DNA of 64,000 bases from Atopobium deltae (lineage in GTDB: Bacteria; Actinomycetota; Coriobacteriia; Coriobacteriales; Atopobiaceae): positions 62,001 to 126,000 of the forward strand of contig NZ_KQ959487.1 in NCBI RefSeq assembly GCF_001552785.1, read 5' to 3'. The notes below the pieces were generated by a model. That model saw nothing but the letters and a program-made list of their open reading frames with translations. It was not told the origin of the DNA and did not search any database. Position 1 is the first letter of the stretch; every line of letters begins with the position of its first letter. Both the position numbers and the translations under genes were made by a program. Of this stretch, positions 49,897 to 63,298 are shown piece by piece.

Positions 49897-50591
49897 TTAA
49901 TCCAAAAAAGCAGCGTAACCGCTATGGAAGAACCTCATGACCGAAAGCATCTTTTGATATGCCTGCTCACGCCGCGGAGTCCTGCGTACGATGTCGGCAA
50001 AAATCAAAAAATACGAGCGCGCAAAAATCTGGCTCATTTCTTCAGACAGGACGGGCTTCTCGACAGGATGCTCGAGACGGTCTTGCTGCTGCTGATAGCG
50101 AGCCGTGCTTTGAAGCTCAATATTTACCAAACGATCGATAAAGCTGAGCCATGATGTGCCTTCGGATTTATCCAAGATGAGAAGGACCTCTTCTCGATGA
50201 TCGTAGATGCACGTTAGAAACGCGCTCGTGAAGCCGAGCGAGAAATCATACATGACGTGCATATTTTGCTTGCTGGCTGGCTGCTCGAAAAAGGTGACGT
50301 TTGCTTTGATCATCAGATCAAGCAGCTCGTTGCCAACAGGAGAAACAAGTGCATCAAACAGGCCTTCTTTGCTCTCGAAGTAACCGTAGATGGCGCCCGT
50401 CGTCAGACCACTTTTTTTGGCTATGCGACGCAGCGAGGCTTTTTCGAAGCCCTTCTCGGCGAACTCTTGGAGGGCAAAATGCATATACGTTCGCGCGATT
50501 GGACACCTTTTTGGGTAAGCGGCGCGACAGGTACAGCGGGCACGGCCGTTATTTCGGGAATGGTCGTTGTCCTGTTTGATGCACTATTCAT
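49897..50591 (-). pseudogene. TetR-family regulator with an apparent one-base frameshift
   Basis: From ATG 50591, six bases after the ABC gene stop, the frame reads MNSASNRT..., then VQSRERI. At about 50486 it must shift by one base to continue HFALQEFAEKGFEKASLRRIAKKSGLTTGAIYGYFESKEGLF (key run LTTGAIYGYFESKEGLF), the TetR DNA-binding domain. The normal TetR first helix would read SRERILHFALQEF across the join, so one base (a T in a TTG codon) seems lost. Translation from an internal ATG at 50484 gives 195 residues lacking the start of helix 1. Either the gene is inactive, a sequencing error is present, or the short form works. Confidence 0.75.
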
Positions 50592-50597
50592 AAACGC

Positions 50598-52385
50598 TTA
50601 AACTTTCGCGAGTTTCCAGCCAGCGGCCTTTTGACGAGCCTGGATAAAGTCAGCATAGAGGCCCTTTTGCGCAACGAGCTCGCTGTGCGTGCCACGCTGC
50701 ACAATGCGACCAGCATCGACGACCAAAATCTGATCGGCGTGCATAATCGTCTTGAGGCGATGAGCAATCATGATGACCGTCTTGTGTTTGGTGAGCTCGA
50801 CGATTGCCTTTTGCAATTCTAACTCATTTTCGGGATCGACATTTGCGGTTGCCTCGTCGAGCACGACAATCGGCGCGTCACGAAGCATGGCACGCGCAAT
50901 CGAAATGCGCTGGCGCTGTCCGCCCGAAAGCAGAGCGCCATTCTCGCCCAACTTGGTTTGATAGCCGTCGGGCAGTTGCTTGATGAATTCCTCACAACAG
51001 GCTCGACGAGCTGCAGCAACAACCTGTTCGTGCGTTGCTGCAGGCGTTCCAAACGCGATGTTATTCTCGATAGTATCGTCAAACAAAAAGACGGATTGGA
51101 AGACGGTTGAAAAGTTCAGCATGAGTGATTCGATCTGGTACTCGCGGATGTCGTGGCCACCGATCGTAATGCTTCCCGCGTCAACGTCCCAGAAACGCTG
51201 GAGCAGGCGCACGAGCGTCGTCTTGCCCGAGCCCGAAGGGCCCACCAACGCACAGGATGTACCTGCGGGAATGCTGAGGCTCACGTCATGCAGGATTTGG
51301 TGCGTGTCGTACGAGAAATTCACGTTGCGCACGGCAATGTCGAGTGCGTGCGGATTTGGGGTCGCAAGTGCTGCGGCAGAGGTGGCGGCGGAAACGCCAG
51401 CCTTGAGCATTTTGTCGCCCTCGGGCATAGCCTTGGTTGCCAGAGTCGCATTCACACGATCCATGATCGCATCCAGCGAGCGCAGCGCGGTAGAAAACAT
51501 ACCCGACATCTCCAAGCGACTAAAGAGCATGAAGGATGCGGCAATCAGCGTCAAACAAATCGCAGGGTCTGCAGCTTCAAACAGAAGCTTATAGCAGCTC
51601 AACAGGCACACGACCAGACTCGCTCCCTTCGCGATACAGGCTTGCAACAACGCAAAACGAATACCCGCATACTCAAGCTGCACGAGGGTCTTCTCGCACT
51701 CGTCAATAGCACAGGCCAGATGACTTTGCGCGTCGTCAACAAGCGAAAACGCGCGCACGACCGAAATACCCTGCACGTACTCGAGCACCGCGTTGACAAT
51801 AGTGCGCTGCGCCTTGACCTGTCGCTGCGCAAAGCTACGCACATAGCCCTGCAACGCCTCGATGGTTATCGAGAAGAGCACGAGCGTGCCAAAACTCAAG
51901 GCGCCAAGACGCCAGTCGAGCACACACATCGACAAGCAAATGATCAGCGAAAATGACATGCCACCCAAAATCATCTGATAAGCAAGGCCACCCAGATTTT
52001 GCATGATGTCCAAATCGTTAGTGACAAGGGTAGTCACTTCGCCGAGGTTCTTATCGTTAAAGAATCCCATGGGGAGCTTGCGCAGATGATCGGCCACTTC
52101 GGCGCGCTTGTAGCCCGCCATAGAATAGTTGGCATGACAAAAATTCTGGCTCGACAGATGGGCCATAATGGCCGCGCCGCAAATGCTAAAGGCCATGATT
52201 GCGGCCGCCACTATCGCCGTCGTGGGCGACAGGGTTTTATGCACCAGAGCGCTCAGCACAATCCACAGCGCCGTTACCTGGAAGCCTTCGAAGAAGGAGC
52301 GCAAAAGGGTGAAGAGAAGACCGCGGCGCAGATACGGGGCAAACACCGCGCCAAAGGCAAAGTATTTCTTGAAGATGGAGAACAT
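50598..52385 (-). CDS. ABC transporter, fused permease and ATPase, second half of a pair
   Basis: A 595-residue half-transporter with six membrane helices, Walker A GPSGSGKTTL, signature LSGGQRQR, Walker B IVVLDEATANVD and H-loop IAHR. It begins one base after the stop of the partner ABC gene, so the two very likely form a heterodimer. Pairs like this, in this order, include the YbtPQ/IrtAB importers of iron-siderophore complexes as well as drug exporters. The metal-type operator and the Zn genes around favour a metal or metallophore role, as inference. A TetR gene follows at once. Confidence 0.88.
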   Translation of the reverse strand: MFSIFKKYFAFGAVFAPYLRRGLLFTLLRSFFEGFQVTALWIVLSALVHKTLSPTTAIVAAAIMAFSICGAAIMAHLSSQNFCHANYSMAGYKRAEVADHLRKLPMGFFNDKNLGEVTTLVTNDLDIMQNLGGLAYQMILGGMSFSLIICLSMCVLDWRLGALSFGTLVLFSITIEALQGYVRSFAQRQVKAQRTIVNAVLEYVQGISVVRAFSLVDDAQSHLACAIDECEKTLVQLEYAGIRFALLQACIAKGASLVVCLLSCYKLLFEAADPAICLTLIAASFMLFSRLEMSGMFSTALRSLDAIMDRVNATLATKAMPEGDKMLKAGVSAATSAAALATPNPHALDIAVRNVNFSYDTHQILHDVSLSIPAGTSCALVGPSGSGKTTLVRLLQRFWDVDAGSITIGGHDIREYQIESLMLNFSTVFQSVFLFDDTIENNIAFGTPAATHEQVVAAARRACCEEFIKQLPDGYQTKLGENGALLSGGQRQRISIARAMLRDAPIVVLDEATANVDPENELELQKAIVELTKHKTVIMIAHRLKTIMHADQILVVDAGRIVQRGTHSELVAQKGLYADFIQARQKAAGWKLAKV

Positions 52386-52386
52386 G

Positions 52387-54273
52387 CTACGCCTCCTTAG
52401 GTGTGTCGGTGTCGGTCATGTTTTTGGCGCCAATGTGCGCGCGATACATGTCGGCATATAGCTCGCAGCTTTGCATAAGCTGCCCGTGCGTGCCTGAAGC
52501 CTCAATGCGACCATCGTTGATCACCACAATGCAATCGGCATCTTTGACGGTCGAAAGCCTGTGCGCGATCACCACGAGGGTCTTATCTTCCACCAGTTTT
52601 GCAACCGCAGCCTGCACTTCGGCCTCCGATTCAGGGTCGGTGTAGGCGGTTGCCTCATCAAGCAACACAATGGGCGCGTCTTTGAGCATGGCACGCGCAA
52701 TAGCAATGCGCTGGCGCTCGCCGCCCGAAAGATGCCCGCCCGAGCTGCCCACAACCGTTTGGTAGCCCTCGGCTAAGCTGCAAATAAACTCATGGCAGCC
52801 CGACGCCTTGGCACAGGCGATAACCTCGGCATCAGTCGCAGCAGGCCTACCCATGCGAATGTTATTCATGATCGTATCGTCAAACAAATACGTCTTTTGA
52901 TCGACGTAAGCGATAAGACCAGCGAGCTGCTCGGCGGTCATCTGCGGCAGCCCCACGCCAGCAATAGAAACGCTTCCCTGTGTCGGGTCCCAAAAGCCCG
53001 CGATAAGGCGCGCCAGGGTCGACTTGCCTGAACCAGAAGGTCCCACCAGCGCCGTCACGCTTTGCGGCTCGATGTCCAGATTGATGTTATGCAGCACTTC
53101 TCGAGAACCGTCATAACTAAATGACACATTATGCAAGCTAATTGGCTTAGCGAGAAGATCGGCGGGGTTGACGCTCGTGCCCAAGGGCGCGTCGGAACCC
53201 ATATCGGCGCTCGCACGCTGTTGCTCGGGCGCACTCAAAACCTTTTGAATCTCCCCCACCGTGATACCGATTTCGGCCAGAGCATCGCTGAAGCTCATGG
53301 CAGCATACAGCGGCGGAAAAATGCCGAGTGACAACACCGCTGCCAGCACAAACGTTTCGGGCGCAAGGGAGCCATCAAGCACAAACAAGCAGCCCAGCGG
53401 AAGCACGAGCAGCAAGGTCGCAGGGGCAACGCTGAGCGCGACATCGGACCAAATCTGGCAATGCGCCATCCAGTCGATAAAGGCGTGCGCCGAATCGTGC
53501 ACCGCCTGCGAAAACTTTTTGTAGGAACTCGCCGACTGACCAAAGGCCTTAATAACCTCCATGCCCGAAATGAACTCGACGGAGGTATTGTTCATGATTT
53601 TGCCCGTACGCACGGTGTTACTAAACCATTTATCGTAATCGAGCATCATGCCCATCATACACACCATGCCCAACGCTATAGGCACAAAGGTCGAAAGTGC
53701 AAGCCGCCAATCGAGCACAAATAAATAGACGATAACGGCGCACGAAACAAGTAGATTAGAGCTGAGCTCGGGCACTGCGTGAGCCATGGTTGTTTCAATG
53801 CTGTCGACCTTCTCGACCATCAGGGCTTTGAGCGTGCCCGACGGCGTATCGAGCACGTAGCCCATGGGCACGCATGTCAACTTTTGCGCAAGCATGCGGC
53901 GGATGCGCGACACCGTGGCAAAGGTCGCCGCGTGCGACACGGCCGTGGAACTAAAATGGCCGATAAGATACACGAGGTAGCCCGCGGCGGCCCACGCAAG
54001 CCACTGCACAAAGCCGTGCCAATCTCGAGAGCCCTGCAGGATGTTGGCAATAATATTGCCAGCCGCGACGTAGGGAACCATGCTTCCCGCTACGCCGAGA
54101 ATAGCAAGCGCGACCGAAAGCGCATAGTCTTTCTTTTTGTCCGACCATGCAAACAGTTGCGCTATGGGTGAAGGCTGCCGCGTGACCTCGTTTTGCTGCC
54201 CGGATGCAGCCGCCGCTGCAGGCGCAGCGGCTGCAGCGGGTGCAGAGCCAGCCTTAGTATCTTGGGTACTCAT
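52387..54273 (-). CDS. ABC transporter, fused permease and ATPase, first half of a pair
   Basis: A 628-residue half-transporter. The N-terminus carries an Ala-rich low-complexity stretch (residues 8-27), then six membrane helices. The ATPase domain shows GPSGSGKSTL, LSGGERQR, IVLLDEATAYTD and IAHR; the D-loop region AYTD differs from the usual SALD, and the partner has ANVD, so both sites may still bind ATP. ATG 54273 is chosen since GAGG lies 7 bases upstream. The promoter with an overlapping palindrome is at 54309-54351. Confidence 0.88.
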   Translation of the reverse strand: MSTQDTKAGSAPAAAAAPAAAAASGQQNEVTRQPSPIAQLFAWSDKKKDYALSVALAILGVAGSMVPYVAAGNIIANILQGSRDWHGFVQWLAWAAAGYLVYLIGHFSSTAVSHAATFATVSRIRRMLAQKLTCVPMGYVLDTPSGTLKALMVEKVDSIETTMAHAVPELSSNLLVSCAVIVYLFVLDWRLALSTFVPIALGMVCMMGMMLDYDKWFSNTVRTGKIMNNTSVEFISGMEVIKAFGQSASSYKKFSQAVHDSAHAFIDWMAHCQIWSDVALSVAPATLLLVLPLGCLFVLDGSLAPETFVLAAVLSLGIFPPLYAAMSFSDALAEIGITVGEIQKVLSAPEQQRASADMGSDAPLGTSVNPADLLAKPISLHNVSFSYDGSREVLHNINLDIEPQSVTALVGPSGSGKSTLARLIAGFWDPTQGSVSIAGVGLPQMTAEQLAGLIAYVDQKTYLFDDTIMNNIRMGRPAATDAEVIACAKASGCHEFICSLAEGYQTVVGSSGGHLSGGERQRIAIARAMLKDAPIVLLDEATAYTDPESEAEVQAAVAKLVEDKTLVVIAHRLSTVKDADCIVVINDGRIEASGTHGQLMQSCELYADMYRAHIGAKNMTDTDTPKEA

Positions 54274-54308
54274 AACATTTCCTCTCATGAGCCTCTTGTG
54301 CGGTTTTT

Positions 54309-54351
54309 GTTAGCGGTATCTAACTATAGCCTTTTTGTCTTAATTTTGTAA
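54309..54351 (-). promoter_or_regulatory. promoter and overlapping palindrome of the ABC-ABC-TetR operon
   Basis: On the minus strand TTACAA (54351-54346) and TATAGT (54328-54323) are 17 bases apart, a good sigma-70-type promoter. The palindrome GTTAGCGGTATCTAAC (54309-54324) overlaps the -10 and the expected start, 36 bases before the first ABC gene. It shares GTTAGC...TAAC with the palindrome at the zinT promoter. It could bind the TetR protein encoded downstream or a metal repressor. Confidence 0.6.
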
Positions 54352-54541
54352 CAGTGTAATATTTTATTTTGTGGAAGGCTCGTAAAAATTTTCCGCCTCT
54401 CTGCGTGAGCTGCGAGTCGCCACACGGGCGTTGCCGCACGAACACTACGGTTATGCCGCGGACGTGCACGGCGGTTATACAAAGTGATTTTCCAGTAGCA
54501 CTGGCGCGTAATGGTATAAGCAATTTATTTTTGCATGTGGT

Positions 54542-55975
54542 ATGTTAGTTTCTATGAATATGCATCCTGACATAGCAAAGCCCGCACAAACGCAGGTAGG
54601 GCAAGCTACGCAAAAACAGGTAGCACGAACTGCGCAAACGCAAAAACACTCTAACGGCGCACCTCTGCGACTCGCTATTATTGGCGGAGGCGCCGCGGGG
54701 TTCTTTTTAGCACTAAACGCACACGAGCTCCACCAACGCTTGAGTCAGGAAGCCGCTCGCCAACAGCTGCAGCAACAGCACCCACAGCGCAAACAGCGGT
54801 CGGCGTGCCCACAGCACCCATACCCCCGCCCGCTCGAAATACATATCTTCGAGAAGAGCGCCCGAGTAATGAGCAAGCTTGCACTCACGGGTCATGGCCG
54901 CTGTAATTGCACGAATACCTTTGCTAAGGTCAAGCGCTTGGATGAAGTATATCCACGCGGGTCGCGACTGCTTAAAAAATTGTTTAAACAATTTGGCCCA
55001 CGCGACACCTACCAATGGTTTGAGGAACACGGTGTAGCACTTATGACACAGGACGATCAACGCATCTTTCCTGCAGCGCAAACAAGCCAAACCATACTCG
55101 ATATGTTCTTAGAGCATGCGCACAAATACAGAGTGCAGCTGCACCTCAAACAGCGCATAGACTCCCCCGAAAACCTGCTCATACAAAATGGCGGCTCCTT
55201 CGATTTTGTCGCCGTGACCACAGGTGGCGCTTCGACTGCCGTGACCACTGGTGGCTCCCCTACGAGTTCTGTTGCGGATACTGTATCTGCCTGCGTGCCA
55301 AGCCTGTTTGGTTTTTGCATTGCGGATCCGCAGTTGTGCGCACTCGCAGGATCTTCTCGGCAGGAGGCACGCCTCAGTATTCCTCACACGTCATTTTGTG
55401 CGAAAGGACCGTTGCTCATCACGCATCAGGGCGTAAGTGGACCAGCAGCGCTTAGCTTGTCAAGTTATGCGGCGCGGTGGCTTGCCGAGAAGGGCTATCA
55501 GCATGAGCTTTGCATTAACTGGACTGGTGCCCGCAATCAGGACGAAATCCGCCAGCAGCTTGCAGACCTGCTACAAAAAAATCCTCACAAGCGTCTTGCA
55601 AACGTGCAGCCGCATCAGTTGAGCCAGCGCTTATGGAACTACCTTATCGAGAAGAACGACCCAGCGCTGCGCAAGAAGCACTGCAGCGAGGTATCAAAAA
55701 AGCAGCTTAATAAGCTGGTGCTCACGCTTGCTAACGATACGTACGAAGTTTCTGGACGCAGCGCTCATAAAGAGGAGTTTGTGACCTGCGGAGGGGTTTC
55801 TTTGCGAAGCGTGAACTCGGCTACGTTGGAATCAAAGCGGCAAGCTGACCTGTACTACGCTGGAGAAGTTCTGGATATCGATGGCATTACTGGAGGCTTT
55901 AATCTGCAGGCTGCCTGGACGTGCGCCTGGGTGGTCGCACATGCGATCACATGCATAGCCACCCAGGTTGACTAA
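54542..55975 (+). CDS. BaiN/HI0933-type FAD-dependent oxidoreductase
   Basis: A 477-residue flavoprotein. The FAD site is LAIIGGGAAGFFLALNA near residue 43, after an unusual Gln/Ala/Thr-rich N-terminal extension of 40 residues. Family landmarks: KLALTGHGRCNCTN, QDDQRIFPAAQTSQTILDMF, LITHQGVSGPAALSLS and the C-terminal DIDGITGGFNLQAAW. HI0933/YhiN/BaiN proteins are FAD enzymes of poorly known role; BaiN reduces bile-acid intermediates, but that substrate is not implied here. ATGs at 54542, 54554 and 54560 are all possible starts, none with a strong ribosome site. Confidence 0.87.
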   Translation: MLVSMNMHPDIAKPAQTQVGQATQKQVARTAQTQKHSNGAPLRLAIIGGGAAGFFLALNAHELHQRLSQEAARQQLQQQHPQRKQRSACPQHPYPRPLEIHIFEKSARVMSKLALTGHGRCNCTNTFAKVKRLDEVYPRGSRLLKKLFKQFGPRDTYQWFEEHGVALMTQDDQRIFPAAQTSQTILDMFLEHAHKYRVQLHLKQRIDSPENLLIQNGGSFDFVAVTTGGASTAVTTGGSPTSSVADTVSACVPSLFGFCIADPQLCALAGSSRQEARLSIPHTSFCAKGPLLITHQGVSGPAALSLSSYAARWLAEKGYQHELCINWTGARNQDEIRQQLADLLQKNPHKRLANVQPHQLSQRLWNYLIEKNDPALRKKHCSEVSKKQLNKLVLTLANDTYEVSGRSAHKEEFVTCGGVSLRSVNSATLESKRQADLYYAGEVLDIDGITGGFNLQAAWTCAWVVAHAITCIATQVD

Positions 55976-55984
55976 TGCTTTACG

Positions 55985-56026
55985 TGTCGCCTAGAGCTGT
56001 TGCTTTCGACACCTCCAAAGGCGACA
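55985..56026. terminator. possible bidirectional terminator
   Basis: TGTCGCCT (55985-55992) and AGGCGACA (56019-56026) are perfect 8-base arms between two convergent genes. The loop of 26 bases is large and there is no T-tract, so this is weak. Confidence 0.3.
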
Positions 56027-56043
56027 TCATCATCTAAACACGC

Positions 56044-56589
56044 TTACTTATCTTGTACAGCACCCTGAGCCGTATCCTGAGTTCCACTTTGAGCCTTCTT
56101 CTGGAAGTATGCATCAAGTTTTTGCGCGTACAGCTGCTTTTCGTATTTTGTTTTAAGCGTAAACACCACCGAGAGCGCTGCAAAGATAACCAGGTAAATG
56201 ATCGTAAAGGTTGCCCAAATGCCAAGGTTTTGCGCTGGAAACCACGAGAATACCGTCATAAACAAGACGCATAAAATAACGTACAACACAACACCAAACA
56301 GGGCAATTCTTGCAGGGTAGCTGAGCGCCTTAAACACATAGTGCGTAAAAAAGACTACTTGTAATCCGACGGCGATCGCACAGGCACCAAATAGCTGCCA
56401 CGAAAGCAAAACGCCCTGCAGGGCTTCTCCTTCGGCAAATACGGTGCCCACAGCCAAAAAGATGAGCATAACCGTCGTAAAAGAGATGCACAGCGAGGTA
56501 GCTGCATACATCCAGGGGTTACCAAAAGCACCTTCGAGATTGCTTGATTCTTGATTCTTGTAATCACTTGTTTGCGTGAGCGTTTTCAT
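56044..56589 (-). CDS. DUF3021-like membrane protein
   Basis: A 181-residue protein with four membrane segments at about residues 28-50, 62-85, 95-117 and 125-147, followed by a basic cytoplasmic tail (LKTKYEKQLYAQKLDAYFQKK, key run KYEKQLYAQKLDAYF). This matches DUF3021 proteins, which are encoded next to LytTR regulators and are thought to control their activity at the membrane. A LytTR gene indeed lies 110 bases upstream. Confidence 0.78.
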   Translation of the reverse strand: MKTLTQTSDYKNQESSNLEGAFGNPWMYAATSLCISFTTVMLIFLAVGTVFAEGEALQGVLLSWQLFGACAIAVGLQVVFFTHYVFKALSYPARIALFGVVLYVILCVLFMTVFSWFPAQNLGIWATFTIIYLVIFAALSVVFTLKTKYEKQLYAQKLDAYFQKKAQSGTQDTAQGAVQDK

Positions 56590-56699
56590 AAAAGTCTCCT
56601 TGCATTTAGGCGTGCTGCAGACAGGCGTTTAGGCGTGCGTTGTAAGCGTGCACCTTTCGAGCGGGTACGGCGGCATACGGCCGCAAACGATTGACCAGC

Positions 56700-57137
56700 C
56701 TACATGTCGAGTTTTTTGCGGATAATCCCAGCGTATTGTCGCGAAACGATGAGTTTCTCGGCATTATCGAGCGTAATAATCAAACGCCCGTTAAACTCGG
56801 GTTCAATGCTCGCAATACGGTTAAAATTCACAAGACAAGCGCGTGCAATGCGCACAAAGTCGCAGGTTTCCAGGCGCGCTTTGGCTTCGTACAGCGGCAT
56901 TCCCAAACGCAGCACGCTTGTGTCCGTATAGGCAAAGCAACGCTTATCGACCGATTCGATATAGAGCACCTGCGCGGTAGGAACTACGCAAAGCTTCTGA
57001 CCGTCCATTCCCGAAAGGCGCTGTGCGTCGCTGCGCAAGTTTGTTACCAAACGCTGCAGTGTTTCCGTCTTTTGCGGATACCGGACAAGCACATATATGT
57101 CATTCAGCTGTTCATCCTGCACAAGCTCTACTTTCAT
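56700..57137 (-). CDS. LytTR-domain transcriptional regulator
   Basis: A 145-residue protein. The C-terminal LytTR DNA-binding domain is clear: VLYIESVDKRCFAYTD, LYEAKARLETCDFVRIARACLVNFNRI (key run RIARACLVNFNRIASIEP), and LIVSRQYAGIIRKKL. It lacks a receiver domain, so it is of the short type whose activity is set by a membrane partner such as the DUF3021 protein. ATG 57137 follows AGGGGG 7 bases upstream. That ribosome site is part of a strong inverted repeat. Confidence 0.88.
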   Translation of the reverse strand: MKVELVQDEQLNDIYVLVRYPQKTETLQRLVTNLRSDAQRLSGMDGQKLCVVPTAQVLYIESVDKRCFAYTDTSVLRLGMPLYEAKARLETCDFVRIARACLVNFNRIASIEPEFNGRLIITLDNAEKLIVSRQYAGIIRKKLDM

Positions 57138-57139
57138 TA

Positions 57140-57212
57140 ATAAACCCCCTCTCATACAAGCTGCTTTAACCATAGAACATCAAACAACTTGCTTTGAGTG
57201 TAGGGGGTTTAT
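57140..57212 (-). promoter_or_regulatory. hairpin hiding the LytTR ribosome site
   Basis: In the transcript ATAAACCCCCT (57212-57202) is the exact complement of AGGGGGTTTAT (57150-57140), which contains the ribosome site of the LytTR gene. Inner pairs CTCA/TGAG and CAAG/CTTG extend the stem. If transcription starts upstream of 57212, this would block translation until opened. Confidence 0.55.
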
Positions 57213-57238
57213 CACACAAGTTCTCTGCGAAATGACTG

Positions 57239-57269
57239 AGTTGCAAAAATGCCTGCCTCAGTTGCAAAA
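57239..57269. promoter_or_regulatory. candidate LytTR binding site
   Basis: AGTTGCAAAA occurs at 57239-57248 and again at 57260-57269 in the same orientation, 21 bases apart, i.e. two helical turns. LytTR regulators bind direct repeats of about nine bases with GTT in the centre and this spacing. It lies 100 bases upstream of the LytTR gene, so autoregulation is plausible. Confidence 0.5.
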
Positions 57270-57287
57270 GCGCGACCACACCAAACG

Positions 57288-58112
57288 CTATACCTTGATT
57301 GACGGAGGCACCACCTTCGTTTTTCTCGTCAGGCGTGCGTAAATCAAGAAGAGCACAATGCCGATGACCGCGCTTACTACGATGGAGCCACCAGGGCGCA
57401 CGTCGTAATGGTACGAAAACGTCAAGCCGCTCAAAGTGTAAATCATGCCCAGAATCACGGACAAAATGCAGGTCTGCTTATAGCTGCGTGCGACGATAAG
57501 GGCCGTCGCGACGGGCAGCGTCACGAGCGACACTACCAACAGAGCGCCCACGACTTTGCAGGCAAGCGCAATCATAATGGCGGTAACCAGCGTAAAGATG
57601 CCGTTGACAAAGCCAACCTTCACGCCCGACAGACGGGCAATGGTGGTGTCCACAGCCAAATCCAACAAGGCCGCATAAAAGACAATACTGATGACCACGG
57701 TCAGCACAAACACAGCCGCCGTGCTGATAAGATCAACCACGGTCACCGACGAAATCGAGCCAAACAAATACGACTCAAAGGTGTTTCCACCAGGGGCGAG
57801 GTCGGCCAAAATAACGGACAGACCCAGGCCAGCGCTCATAATAACCGCCACCGACATATCGCCGAAGTGCGGCATCTTAGCACGAATGCCCTCGATGAAG
57901 AAGGCCGAAATCACGCAGCTAATCACGGCGCCAATAACGGGATTGAATCCCAAAATCAAACCGAAGCCAACACCCATAAGCGAAGCATGCGACAGAGCGT
58001 CGCTGACCATCGACGTTTTGCGGTTGATCATCACAATACCAATCAGGGGCAACGCAATCGCAAGCATGATGCCAGCAGCGAGCGTGCGGCGCATAAAGTC
58101 AAACTCAAGCAC
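57288..58112 (-). CDS. znuB: zinc/manganese ABC transporter permease, second locus
   Basis: A 274-residue ABC-3 permease with eight or nine membrane segments. MVSDALSHASLMGVGFGLILG and VVGALLVVSLVTLPVATA are the family landmarks; the latter differs from the first-locus permease (TIGSLIVSSLLVVPV), so they are paralogues rather than recent copies. Its start overlaps the end of the ATPase gene by 8 bases. Confidence 0.92.
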   Translation of the reverse strand: MLEFDFMRRTLAAGIMLAIALPLIGIVMINRKTSMVSDALSHASLMGVGFGLILGFNPVIGAVISCVISAFFIEGIRAKMPHFGDMSVAVIMSAGLGLSVILADLAPGGNTFESYLFGSISSVTVVDLISTAAVFVLTVVISIVFYAALLDLAVDTTIARLSGVKVGFVNGIFTLVTAIMIALACKVVGALLVVSLVTLPVATALIVARSYKQTCILSVILGMIYTLSGLTFSYHYDVRPGGSIVVSAVIGIVLFLIYARLTRKTKVVPPSIKV

Positions 58113-58776
58113 GATTCATCCTTCCTGCATCAATTTTGTACGTTGCATCAAAGCTCACATGCCTGCATACCAGCTCAAGCTCATGCGAGACGAGCAGCGT
58201 CGTAATGTCGCGCTCTTTGCGAATGCGCTCGAGGGTATCCAAGAAGCTAATTTTGCTGTCATTGTCGACACCAGCGGTAGGCTCGTCCAAAATCAACAGC
58301 TGCGGGTTGTTGATAAGCGCGCGGGTAATCATGACGCGCTGTTGCAAACCACCCGAAAGCTCATTAAAAGGAACGTTGATATAGGTGGACAGCCCCATTT
58401 GCTTTAGCGCCGTTGACGCCTTTTGAATATGCTTTTTACGAGGCACTTTAATAAAACCAAAGTCGTTATACAAACCTAAGCAGACCATCTCGCAACAGGT
58501 TGTGGGAAAGGCAACCTTGTCCATCACACTTGCCTGAGGAACATACCCAATACGCGTCAGGTCGGTAAGCTTGTCGATGGGCGTACCAAACAGCTCTACC
58601 TTGCCTTTGAAGCCTTTGAGCTCGCCCAGCAAGACCTTTAACAGCGTCGACTTGCCCGAGCCATTCTCGCCCGTAATACAACACGCCTCGCCCTTCTCGA
58701 CGCAAAAATCAATGCCGCGTAGCACGGGGTCGGCCGTATATCCAAACGTAAGCTCGCTTACATCAATAATGTGCAT
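58105..58776 (-). CDS. znuC: zinc/manganese ABC transporter ATPase, second locus
   Basis: A 223-residue ABC ATPase: Walker A GENGSGKST, Q-loop YVPQASVM, signature LSGGLQQR, Walker B LLILDEPTAGVD, switch His in LVSHELEL. It lies 11 bases after the substrate-binding gene and overlaps the permease gene. Confidence 0.92.
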   Translation of the reverse strand: MHIIDVSELTFGYTADPVLRGIDFCVEKGEACCITGENGSGKSTLLKVLLGELKGFKGKVELFGTPIDKLTDLTRIGYVPQASVMDKVAFPTTCCEMVCLGLYNDFGFIKVPRKKHIQKASTALKQMGLSTYINVPFNELSGGLQQRVMITRALINNPQLLILDEPTAGVDNDSKISFLDTLERIRKERDITTLLVSHELELVCRHVSFDATYKIDAGRMNRA

Positions 58777-58787
58777 AGCGTCTCCTA

Positions 58788-60125
58788 CTACTTCAGCGAC
58801 TCGTAAATCGCCTCGATATTTGCTCTCATAATTTCGACGTAGCCGTTCATCTTGCTGCCCTGCTCCTCGCTGACATACTCCATCGAGGCCAGCGGAATCG
58901 CCTTGCCGCCGATTTCTCCGGCTACGGTATCGGCACCCTTGGACGACGCACCAAGCTCGTAAAACACGGTGTTGACGTTATGACGTTTGCAAAAATCAAC
59001 CGCCTTGCGCACCGTTTTGAGCGCGGGGGCCTCGGTGGACGTCAGTCCCTGCAAGGGAAAATGTTTAATGTTAAAGTCGCGGCATAAATACGAGTACGCG
59101 TTGTGCGTGACCACAAATTCGCGCCGCTCCAGCTTCGAGAACTTCTCGTTATACTCGGCCGTAATGTCGGTTAGCCGAGAAACCACGTTGAGCTTGTTCT
59201 TTTTAAAGCTGCGCGCCTCGTCGGGTGCCAGCTCGCATAAGCGATCCTGAATAGCGCTGCAATACTGCTTCGCGTTGACGAGCGACAGCCACGAGTGCGG
59301 GTCAAAGGTGATCTTATCGTGACCCGATGATGAGCCTTCCATCAGGGTTTTTGTTGGAATTTCGTCGTCATTCTCGCGCGTCACAAAGCGATACGACAGC
59401 AAGCTTTCGGAAGCGCGATCCGAAATAATGATCCAGTCGTCTCCGTCGGGAAGGGTAAAGCCAATGTAGCCGCTTTCGTGACCCATCTCCAGCGCGTAAA
59501 CGTGGTCGGGCTCCACCGTAAACGTCGTGTGCTGCGTCACGACGGACCCCTTTTGATTCATAATGCTGCGACCGTGCTTAATGAGGTCGGCCTGACTCAT
59601 CTGCTTTTTGTCTTTGAGAAATGCGACGCGCAGAATATCCTGGTGCGTGTGACCAAATTCAAAGCCGTAGGTCCCTGGCTTGACCTCAAGGCGGGCCATG
59701 AACTGGAACTCTCCCATGGCGGCGGCACCTTTATAGGTGATAAGTTCGATGCTGTCGGACAGCTTTAGCACGGGCAGGTCGGGCAGATTGTCGCGCACTT
59801 GGTCGAGCCAGTGCTCCATGTTGGCACCGTTTACGACCAGTAGGTGTGATTCTGACAAATTGCGCAGCGACCGAGGCGTGGGCTCCCACATGTGGGGATC
59901 CTTGTTCGATGGCATAAATGAATGCAGGTTAATGGCGTCGCCCGCCACCTCGCGCACCAAATCAAAGACGGGATAAAACGAGGCATACACGGTTGGTTTT
60001 TGCCCCTCTTGCAGGGCATGTTTATGACCAGAACGCCCAGCACACGCAGAAAGTGAGCCGAGCGCCAGAGAAGACAGCGATGCTGATGCACATAAGCCGA
60101 GAAATGCTCTTCTCGAGTAATCCAT
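58788..60125 (-). CDS. znuA: ZnuA-like substrate-binding lipoprotein with a large inserted domain
   Basis: A 445-residue protein. The signal carries a twin-arginine motif (SRRAFLG) and a lipobox LSAC (Cys28), so it is probably a Tat-exported lipoprotein. The cluster A-I fold is split: YASFYPVFDLVREV and the first His in DPHMWEPT (His78), then an insert at about residues 132-268, then the second His in DPHSWLS (His277), VVTHNAYSYLCRDF and the C-terminal VFYELGASSKGADT. Common ZnuA has only a short His-rich loop at this point. The insert is beta-rich in look and carries FGHTHQD, TQHTTF and EMGHESGY, which could bind metal. ATG 60125 follows GGAG. Confidence 0.88.
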   Translation of the reverse strand: MDYSRRAFLGLCASASLSSLALGSLSACAGRSGHKHALQEGQKPTVYASFYPVFDLVREVAGDAINLHSFMPSNKDPHMWEPTPRSLRNLSESHLLVVNGANMEHWLDQVRDNLPDLPVLKLSDSIELITYKGAAAMGEFQFMARLEVKPGTYGFEFGHTHQDILRVAFLKDKKQMSQADLIKHGRSIMNQKGSVVTQHTTFTVEPDHVYALEMGHESGYIGFTLPDGDDWIIISDRASESLLSYRFVTRENDDEIPTKTLMEGSSSGHDKITFDPHSWLSLVNAKQYCSAIQDRLCELAPDEARSFKKNKLNVVSRLTDITAEYNEKFSKLERREFVVTHNAYSYLCRDFNIKHFPLQGLTSTEAPALKTVRKAVDFCKRHNVNTVFYELGASSKGADTVAGEIGGKAIPLASMEYVSEEQGSKMNGYVEIMRANIEAIYESLK

Positions 60126-60213
60126 ATAACACTCCTGTGGTGTAATGGTATCTATCGTACATATATGAAAAAACTTACATATGCCAAATCTTTCAGATAA
60201 GCACGTTATAAGA

Positions 60214-60314
60214 AAGCAGGCTGCCTGCGGCACGTGCCGCACTCAATCGTGCGTACGTGTGTCGCACGTGGGGCGTGTCGAGCACAGTATGTGCCATGCA
60301 CAAGCAGCCTGCTT
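60214..60314 (-). promoter_or_regulatory. nested palindromes between zinT and znuA
   Basis: AAGCAGGCTGC (60214-60224) and GCAGCCTGCTT (60304-60314) are exact complements enclosing 79 bases; the 3' arm is followed by TTCTTAT in the transcript. Inside lies the perfect 14-bp palindrome GCGGCACGTGCCGC (60227-60240) and further GTGC/GCAC words. It looks like a structured attenuator or partial terminator between the first two genes of the operon. Confidence 0.5.
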
Positions 60315-60329
60315 GCAAGCTACAAAGAT

Positions 60330-60971
60330 TTATTCTTTGATCTCGCCCTTGATCTGATCAAGCGTGGTAGAAGGCTTCACGAAGGTGGGATACCAATCGG
60401 TCTTCTTCTCCATCTCCTCTACGCTTGCGCCAAAGCGAAGGTGGAAGTGAACGAGCTCTTCCTCACCGTGAACGCCCATGAGCATCATGTAAGGATACTT
60501 GGCATCCTTATCGGTAGCCTTGAAAATGTTCCACTCGAGCTCGGCGCCGCCGTGCTTAACCTTCTTGGCCTCGACAAACTCGTACTTGGACTTAGCAATC
60601 TCTTTGCCGTCCTTGTCCTTAAAACCATCAAGGAAGGTGATGCTGTCCTCGGTAACCTCGATGCCCTTGAACTCTGCGGCAGTCTTGGTCTTCATCTCGT
60701 TTTTAACATCTTCGGGCTTCTTGTTGTCGCGCTTGGCTACCTCTTCGTAGGTAGCGTCAAGCTCTTTTTCGTCGAGATAACCGTCGATGCTGTTCCAAAC
60801 ACCCTTCCAGTCAGCCAAAGAAGCAGCCTTCTTGGTGTCTTTTTGCGCAGACTCGGCTGGCTTTTCTTGCGACTTTGAGGTATCCTGAGCCTTCTGTCCG
60901 CCGCAGCCCACGAGCGTGAGCGCCAACACCATAGAGATGCCAGAAGCGGCAATACCGGTAAGCTTGTTCAT
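60330..60971 (-). CDS. zinT: ZinT-domain zinc-binding lipoprotein
   Basis: A 213-residue lipoprotein: signal with lipobox LVGC (Cys23), a charged Lys/Ser/Glu linker to about residue 50, then a ZinT (YodA) domain starting LADWKGVWNSIDGYLDE, the family opening. The zinc ligands are visible near the end as VHGEEELVHFHLRFG (three His). ZinT binds Zn2+ outside the membrane and feeds ZnuA, and here the gene heads the operon that contains that ZnuA. Confidence 0.92.
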   Translation of the reverse strand: MNKLTGIAASGISMVLALTLVGCGGQKAQDTSKSQEKPAESAQKDTKKAASLADWKGVWNSIDGYLDEKELDATYEEVAKRDNKKPEDVKNEMKTKTAAEFKGIEVTEDSITFLDGFKDKDGKEIAKSKYEFVEAKKVKHGGAELEWNIFKATDKDAKYPYMMLMGVHGEEELVHFHLRFGASVEEMEKKTDWYPTFVKPSTTLDQIKGEIKE

Positions 60972-61002
60972 TTCAAACCCTCCATTCGGATTGTAGCTAT
61001 TA

Positions 61003-61055
61003 GTTAGCCTTGGTTAACATTAGCTTAAATTACTCTACCGTCGCGCTGATGTCAA
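61003..61055 (-). promoter_or_regulatory. zinT promoter and overlapping palindrome
   Basis: On the minus strand TTGACA (61055-61050) and TAATTT (61032-61027) are exactly 17 bases apart. The near-perfect palindrome GTTAGCCTTGGTTAAC (61003-61018) sits at the expected start site. It resembles the GTTAGC...TAAC palindrome at the ABC operon promoter and, loosely, DtxR/IdeR-type boxes with TTAG-CTAA symmetry. Suggested role: metal-dependent repression. Confidence 0.65.
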
Positions 61056-62232: not shown

Positions 62233-62442
62233 CTACATGATAGACGTAACGTCTGCCACGATGAATTCGGAGAGATACCAGTTGCTAAAAGGACCGTTCT
62301 CCTCATCGGAATTATGAAAACACACGACCGCCACGGGGGTCACCACCTTTTTGAGCGCAACGCTGATATGTGCAGCGTTGATATGCGCTGTGTTGATATG
62401 CGCTGTGTTGATATGCGCTGTGTTGAGCGCCACAATGATCAA
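62233..62442 (-). pseudogene. truncated NADAR (YbiA-like) domain fused to repeat-coded leader
   Basis: The 69-codon frame ends with VVCFHNSDEENGPFSNWYLS, which fits the opening of NADAR-family proteins (ADP-ribosyl-glycosidase-like; typical pattern FHxxDEEN-G-xSNWY). It stops some 120 residues too early. The first 25 codons are the translation of a 15-bp tandem repeat (INTAH units). It is probably a broken gene whose 5' end was replaced by the repeat. Confidence 0.5.
62365..62424. repeat. 15-bp tandem repeat, four units
   Basis: GATATGCGCTGTGTT at 62380, 62395 and 62410 is preceded by a variant GATATGTGCAGCGTT at 62365. The period of 15 keeps any reading frame open. Confidence 0.9.
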
Positions 62443-62530
62443 GCGCCTGATTGCATCGGATTACTCTTGATTGCGTACGATTTTGTATAAGCTACTTGCA
62501 TTATACTAGAGCCGAAAGAAGGTGGTCAGC

Positions 62531-63298
62531 TTGAAAAAATCAACCTGGGATTTTTATGCTCCCGCCTACCGCTTTGCCATGCGGGGCGAGAAGACCACGT
62601 ATCGCTGGCTATACGATCATATACAGCACCGAGTGCACGATAAGACCGTGCTTGAGCTCGCGTGCGGTCCTGGCATGTTAGCAAAGCATATAGCGCCCGT
62701 AACCAAACAAATGATAGCAACCGACTATTCGGAAGGTATGATTGCACAAGCAAATAAGCAGCAGGGCGGCGATGATGCTGGCGACGACTGCACTGTCAGT
62801 GTTGGCGATGCTAGCATCGCTAGCTACACTGACGACATTTGTGCTAGTGGCGCTGGCATCGCTGGCTACACTGATGCTGGTGGCGAGCACGATGAGCGCG
62901 CGAAACTTACATTTGAAGTTGCTGACGCAACCAAGCTTGCGTATGTTGACGATTCATTTGACGTTGTTATTATCGCCAATGCTTTACATACGATGCCACA
63001 ACCCAACCTAGCCTTGCAAGAAATTAAGCGTGTGTTGCGTCCAGACGGGCTGCTTATTGCTCCAAATTTTGTTGTTGCGAGTAATTCTGGCTTTGTGGGT
63101 AAACTTTGGCTGCAGTTTCTAAAAATGGTGGGGCTAAGTTTTGACCACAGTTGGTCGTATCGAGCATATCTTAAATTCTTGGCGGTGCATGGCTGGGATT
63201 GCACCTATTCCAAGCTGCTCGAAGGTCGCGTGCCTCTTTGTTATGTTGAGTGTCGTCGCACCCATACGAGCAATTCTGATTTTACAAATCTGGTATGA
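62531..63298 (+). CDS. class I SAM-dependent methyltransferase
   Basis: A 255-residue methyltransferase. Motif I is VLELACGPGML; the acidic loop IATDYSEGMIAQA follows; then FEVADATKLAYVDDSFDVVI (motif II region) and LRPDGLLIAPNF (motif III). The substrate is unknown. Between the two halves of the SAM fold, residues about 78-123, lies a low-complexity insert rich in Gly, Asp, Ala and Ser, built from imperfect DNA repeats (SIASYTDD / GIAGYTDAGG). TTG 62531 is chosen because AGAAGG lies just upstream; GTG 62522 overlaps that site. Confidence 0.82.
   Translation: MKKSTWDFYAPAYRFAMRGEKTTYRWLYDHIQHRVHDKTVLELACGPGMLAKHIAPVTKQMIATDYSEGMIAQANKQQGGDDAGDDCTVSVGDASIASYTDDICASGAGIAGYTDAGGEHDERAKLTFEVADATKLAYVDDSFDVVIIANALHTMPQPNLALQEIKRVLRPDGLLIAPNFVVASNSGFVGKLWLQFLKMVGLSFDHSWSYRAYLKFLAVHGWDCTYSKLLEGRVPLCYVECRRTHTSNSDFTNLV

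Follow-up and report, generated by a model that had tools for sequence, protein, structure and literature searches.

Two 16-bp palindromes of Atopobium deltae as probable operators of one DtxR-family metal repressor

Are two operons of Atopobium deltae that carry similar 16-bp palindromes at their promoters switched by a common, metal-dependent repressor? The question arises from a 64,000-nt stretch of this genome (NZ_KQ959487.1, 62,001-126,000), here called the window; coordinates are those of the window unless a contig or locus label is given, and A. deltae is called the host. A first-pass annotation had pointed out two palindromes with GTTAGC at one end and TAAC at the other, one at an operon for two ATP-binding cassette (ABC) proteins and a TetR-family regulator (ABC-ABC-TetR), the other at a zinT-znuA-znuC-znuB operon, and had proposed one metal regulon. 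Both palindromes are present exactly, at 54309-54324 and 61003-61018, and both operon orders are correct, all genes lying on the minus strand. From sequence comparison we consider that the two palindromes are probably operators of one metal-regulated repressor, a DtxR-family protein of the SH3-less EqbA type. The metal-regulon idea is well supported because the box is conserved at orthologous promoters, is associated with metal genes and matches the operator word of EqbA (PMC3672683).

The box at the ABC promoter (GTTAGCGGTATCTAAC; other strand GTTAGATACCGCTAAC) is an exact GTTAGN6CTAAC. It has two bases in common with a -10-like TATAGT (54328-54323, minus strand), in agreement with the overlap claimed by the annotation. 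The -10 is preceded by a -35-like TTACAA/GTTACA; the putative promoter, TTACAA-17-TATAGT (54323-54351, minus strand), is a consensus match only. The zinT box (GTTAGCCTTGGTTAAC; other strand GTTAACCAAGGCTAAC) is an exact copy of GTTARCCWWGGYTAAC, the metal box of the family. It is also the R/Y variant GTTAGN6TTAAC, one mismatch from GTTAGN6CTAAC. A putative zinT promoter (61027-61055, minus strand) was read from the sequence as a perfect TTGACA (61055-61050), a spacer of 17 bases and a weak -10, TAATTT (61032-61027). The box starts 9 bases past TAATTT, which is about the expected transcription start, where the annotation had put it. A mechanical promoter scan proposed TTAACC-16-TACAAT and did not list TTGACA-17-TAATTT because TAATTT matches at just three of six positions. 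Half-sites at zinT are spaced about 10 bp apart (61003, 61013 and 61023), the third being GCTTAA (61023-61028).

Conservation of the ABC-promoter box was assessed at 67 loci with a gene related to that of the first ABC subunit, the promoter region being counted from 350 bp before the match to 60 bp into it. Exact GTTAGN6CTAAC was found at 26 of the 67 promoters, against a shuffle expectation of 0.05; five further loci had one mismatch and three had two. Genomes with exact boxes range from Curtanaerobium (Coriobacteriia) to Clostridium, Breznakia and rumen Lachnospiraceae. The suggested tie between the ABC pair and metal status is supported by the genome comparisons as a whole together with the EqbA operator.

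The zinT-type box was followed through 140 genomes of the family. Exact GTTARCCWWGGYTAAC occurred in five of them, at one site each (reversed control, one site): two of these sites precede Nramp genes, and the others precede the host zinT, a feoB gene and a gene for a small Cys-rich membrane protein. Allowing up to two mismatches gave 14 sites in nine of 30 feoB loci (permuted mean 0.19) and ten sites in five of 30 Nramp loci (permuted mean 0.27). Among 200 permuted palindromes the feoB and Nramp site counts were never reached, and the Nramp locus count was reached once. Full-length ZinT is encoded in three of 60 genomes, the host included; the host promoter has the exact box, and that of Olegusella has two sites, with one and two mismatches. 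Sites of the zinT type, whose core is richer than that of the ABC site, also occur at other ABC pairs of the order. At four of these (L237, L239, L241 and L242) no TetR-like gene lies within the ~10 kb examined, but at a fifth (L243) such a gene is 2 kb away.

Genome-wide counts were made in 11 genomes of Clostridia and Coriobacteriia carrying box-bearing ABC loci. GTTAGN6CTAAC occurred at 122 sites, compared with 41 for the control. Clostridium minihomine (28 versus 6) and Curtanaerobium respiraculi (17 versus 0) were enriched, and so were four more genomes (13 versus 1, 11 versus 2, 11 versus 3 and 9 versus 2). We then considered the regions around 58 sites, namely all sites of G168, G171, G172 and G173 and all of G163 minus the ABC site itself. 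Ten of the 58 are mostly coding, whereas 85% of the bases in the same regions are coding. Thirty open reading frames (ORFs), picked by hand from 62 adjoining candidates, were scanned for domains. The matches were Peripla_BP_2 (four, siderophore-binding proteins), S components of the Trep_Strep energy-coupling factor (ECF) type (three), DtxR-family (three), AraC-type (three), FeoA (two), NMT1 (two) and methyltransferase (two), with single cases of a Shr-like heme-binding domain, ABC ATPase, CbiQ, nonribosomal peptide synthetase (NRPS) condensation, AMP-binding, flavin reductase-rubredoxin, E1-E2 ATPase, ATC hydrolase, abhydrolase and ribosomal S4; one ORF had no match. In the seven genomes with complete site lists, six of 19 Fe_dep_repr_C matches have an exact site no more than 600 bp away, the pattern that autoregulation of DtxR genes would give.

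The host encodes one clear DtxR-family protein, on contig C4 (L156:1174-1716); a second match was weak and below cut-off. The C4 protein has Fe_dep_repress and Fe_dep_repr_C domains and no FeoA/SH3 domain. Its motif EACLMEH aligns with DACRxEH in four of the six box-adjacent regulators, the remaining two having ETEKIEH and DASEIEH. The host cysteine occupies the position of Cys102 in DtxR and Cys104 in EqbA, the equivalence being taken from PMC3672683 and from background on DtxR. The dtxR promoters of two genomes of the same genus (L151 and L152) have one-mismatch sites no more than 50 bp from the start.

EqbA of Streptococcus equi, described in 2008, is a DtxR-like repressor that lacks the SH3 fold and has the DtxR-type cysteine (PMC3672683). 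Electrophoretic mobility shift assays on the eqbB promoter showed binding that was aided by Fe2+ or Zn2+, less by Mn2+, and that required a 36-bp palindrome. This palindrome contains GTTAGATGTATCTAAC, a GTTAGN6CTAAC word. The host protein was called EqbA-type from its domains and Cys motif, set against that published description. EqbA also governs siderophore genes, and its locus includes an ABC pair, EqbK/L, 29% identical to YbtP/Q. The known case differs in that EqbA has a single operator, carried by a mobile element, and that its 36-bp palindrome was described as differing from other iron boxes, whereas here a 16-bp box is found over many chromosomal operons, including zinT-znu.

The palindromes had also been likened to DtxR/IdeR boxes, which holds in part. 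They are DtxR-like by virtue of the EqbA word; the classical 19-bp box TTAGGTTAGSCTAACCTAA, with four CCTAA repeats that bind two dimers (consensus from PMC8464063), is in neither window site, and 16 bp is the size for one dimer. A one-dimer DtxR consensus, TTAGGNNNNCCTAA, has been proposed in Actinobacteria such as Saccharopolyspora, where control of iron genes is metal-activated (PMC8464063). Its TTAG-N6-CTAA spacing is the same, but the box described here carries an additional outer G/C and is less constrained at its inner positions, and the host protein lacks an SH3 domain. MntR belongs to the SH3-less DtxR family too, and MntR models score best with the host protein, at 75.9 bits against a cut-off of 153. 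However, the host has Cys where MntR has its Mn-selecting Glu (rule as given in PMC3672683), and the targets of the box in relatives are mainly iron genes.

We propose that, when ferrous iron (or another divalent metal) is sufficient, a metal-loaded DtxR dimer would occupy one 16-bp GTTAG-N6-CTAAC box. Bound over the -10 of ABC-ABC-TetR and at the start of zinT-znuACB, it would keep RNA polymerase off both promoters. When metal is short, the repressor would be released and both operons would be turned on, so that they are probably induced together. Inferred parts of this scheme are the binding of both sites by the host DtxR, the identity of the metal that it senses and the role of the ABC pair as importer of a metal chelate.

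Several observations weigh against this reading. Within the window, the pattern at up to two mismatches matched 29 times, against 44.3 expected from shuffles. The 1.45-Mb host genome has three exact GTTAGCN6TAAC (reversed control, three) and five symmetric GTTARN6YTAAC (control, four), and its counts at one and two mismatches are at or below control, so the genome scan with up to two mismatches that the annotation had put forward as a check cannot decide the matter. The host feo promoter holds degenerate sites only, and the host mntH and dtxR promoters have no site. The ABC site differs at four positions from the family metal box and is without the CC..GG core of that box. No site at two mismatches was found at 25 of the 30 Nramp and 21 of the 30 feoB loci, and the zinT gene of the third ZinT genome (G019) has only ATTAGCTTAAGCTAAC, with one mismatch and 244 bp upstream, which 18 of 300 shuffles equalled. 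Enrichment is slight or absent in five of the 11 genomes (12/10, 11/9, 5/3, 3/3 and 2/2), and the neighbours include non-metal genes, for ribosomal protein S4, hydrolases (ATC hydrolase, abhydrolase) and methyltransferases. Finally, box and TetR go together at the ABC loci: 25 of 33 loci with a TetR gene have the exact box and five of 33 have it with one mismatch, compared with an exact box at one of 34 loci without such a gene.

This last association fits an additional role for TetR. Under dual control of the ABC promoter, DtxR would report metal shortage through the box, and TetR, acting at that site or at one overlapping it, would report the ligand being transported. TetR constantly accompanies the ABC pair that bears the box, all the way from Clostridia to Coriobacteriia, which speaks for such an arrangement, whereas the host tetR may be broken. 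We regard dual control as somewhat unlikely; it would refine, and is compatible with, control by a DtxR-family repressor.

The co-occurrence at first suggested a TetR operator. The ABC palindrome would then serve its own TetR alone and only the zinT palindrome would be a metal box, the likeness reflecting chance or convergent half-sites. The missing CC..GG core agrees with this, and a TetR operator near a -10 would be ordinary. However, a TetR-like gene lies within 2.2 kb of just five of the 58 sites, with none near the other 53, and TetR recognition helices of four kinds (TTGAIYGYF, TNGAFYAHF, TVSGIYKHF and TTGALYKRY) accompany an unchanged site. Of 28 loci with tetR just upstream of the ABC genes, 24 have the exact site in the interval that separates tetR from those genes; an exact site never lies upstream of tetR, and a site with up to one mismatch does so at three of the 28. 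Moreover, the EqbA operator carries the same word (PMC3672683), and the host tetR looks frameshifted. We at first favoured the TetR operator as the main explanation and then dropped it, given the genome-wide spread, the metal neighbours, the EqbA word, the scarcity of TetR genes and the placement of the site; the open-licence literature, judged from listings, yielded nothing relevant on a TetR operator with GTTAG. We now consider it improbable. That the two are unrelated near-palindromes lying 6.7 kb apart by chance is very improbable: window and host-genome counts equal to controls would fit, but the sites are conserved at orthologous promoters and enriched at metal genes, which contradicts chance for both the ABC and the zinT-type sites.

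All five host GTTARN6YTAAC sites are intergenic. Besides the two in the window, they stand at an ECF-ABC-ABC operon (C5:143135, 20 kb from zinT), at a gene for a major facilitator superfamily (MFS) transporter (C13:21138) and at a repeat on C1. The last (C1:113465), which is part of a short tandem repeat next to an ArsR-like gene, was rejected as probably spurious. The ECF operon (L137:10152-17150, C5:136-143 kb) encodes an S component of the PF09819 type, two ATPases and a CbiQ-like T component in one ORF and, downstream, a second exporter-type ABC pair. Its site, GTTAAGCAAAGCTAAC, is beside a TATAGT-like -10, and no riboswitch was detected upstream at gathering score. The site upstream of the MFS gene (L016:1501-1516) is the second exact GTTAGN6CTAAC of the host and adjoins a truncated ABC ATPase remnant. 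At the host feoA-feoA-feoB promoter (L224:3851-3990, C33), degenerate half-sites are clustered with ~10-bp phasing and without a clean copy.

ABC subunit 1, with membrane and ATPase domains, is encoded at 52387-54288 and subunit 2 at 50598-52385 (both minus strand). The leading half-size relatives in the PDB are IrtA and YbtP for subunit 1 and YbtP and YbtQ for subunit 2; IrtAB and YbtPQ are siderophore importers with an exporter fold, but two-domain P-glycoprotein chains outscore them overall. The earlier suggestion of a metallophore importer is therefore only consistent with these likenesses. The TetR-family gene (49897-50484, minus strand) looks frameshifted near 50485: over 49897-50593 the first ~36 codons (MNSASN...QSRERI) are out of frame with the remainder, which could reflect either a mistake in the assembly or a genuine loss of control by TetR. 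The second operon, likewise on the minus strand, encodes ZinT (YodA), a metal-recruitment lipoprotein (60330-60971), the metal-binding protein ZnuA (58788-60125), the ATPase ZnuC (58105-58776) and the ABC-3 family permease ZnuB (57288-58112). Compared with the Pfam profile, ZnuA contains a long insertion; its start codon was picked by eye in an ORF that opens at 60242. Beyond zinT, a gene-poor stretch with a tandem repeat (gatatgcgctgtgtt and variants, 62360-62440) leads to a methyltransferase gene (62522-63298) without a clear box. Similar class I methyltransferase genes in Olegusella (L286:2340) and Atopobium oral taxon 810 (L287:2273) are preceded by conserved exact boxes. In C. respiraculi, a box lies between divergent NRPS condensation and AMP-binding genes (L293:2437), possibly an undescribed siderophore cluster.

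The operator word has been published once, for EqbA (PMC3672683). GTTAGN6CTAAC as a chromosomal regulon of Coriobacteriia and Clostridia with zinT-znu and TetR-ABC-ABC was not found in the open-licence literature, judged mostly from listings and including passages of PMC6814731 and PMC9331361. Nor did that literature, again judged from listings, yield a paper on DtxR/IdeR iron control in Coriobacteria, Eggerthella, Lachnospiraceae or Clostridia. Iron control is poorly described in Coriobacteriia and many gut Clostridia, and with a box suited to genome scans, an operator known once, from a streptococcus of horses, becomes a prediction for a whole regulon. In anaerobes of the gut and mouth, this would assign uncharacterised ABC pairs, ECF transporters and biosynthetic genes to metal starvation, and it makes testable the idea of a zinc-type importer under an iron-type regulator. 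More tentatively, an EqbA-type, SH3-less DtxR that reads GTTAG-N6-CTAAC might be the master regulator for iron, and possibly for zinc, in Coriobacteriia and many Clostridia, in the role played elsewhere by Fur, Zur and IdeR; zinT-znuACB would then be under an iron-type switch, and TetR-ABC-ABC would be a standard, so far unrecognised, iron-starvation module of such anaerobes.

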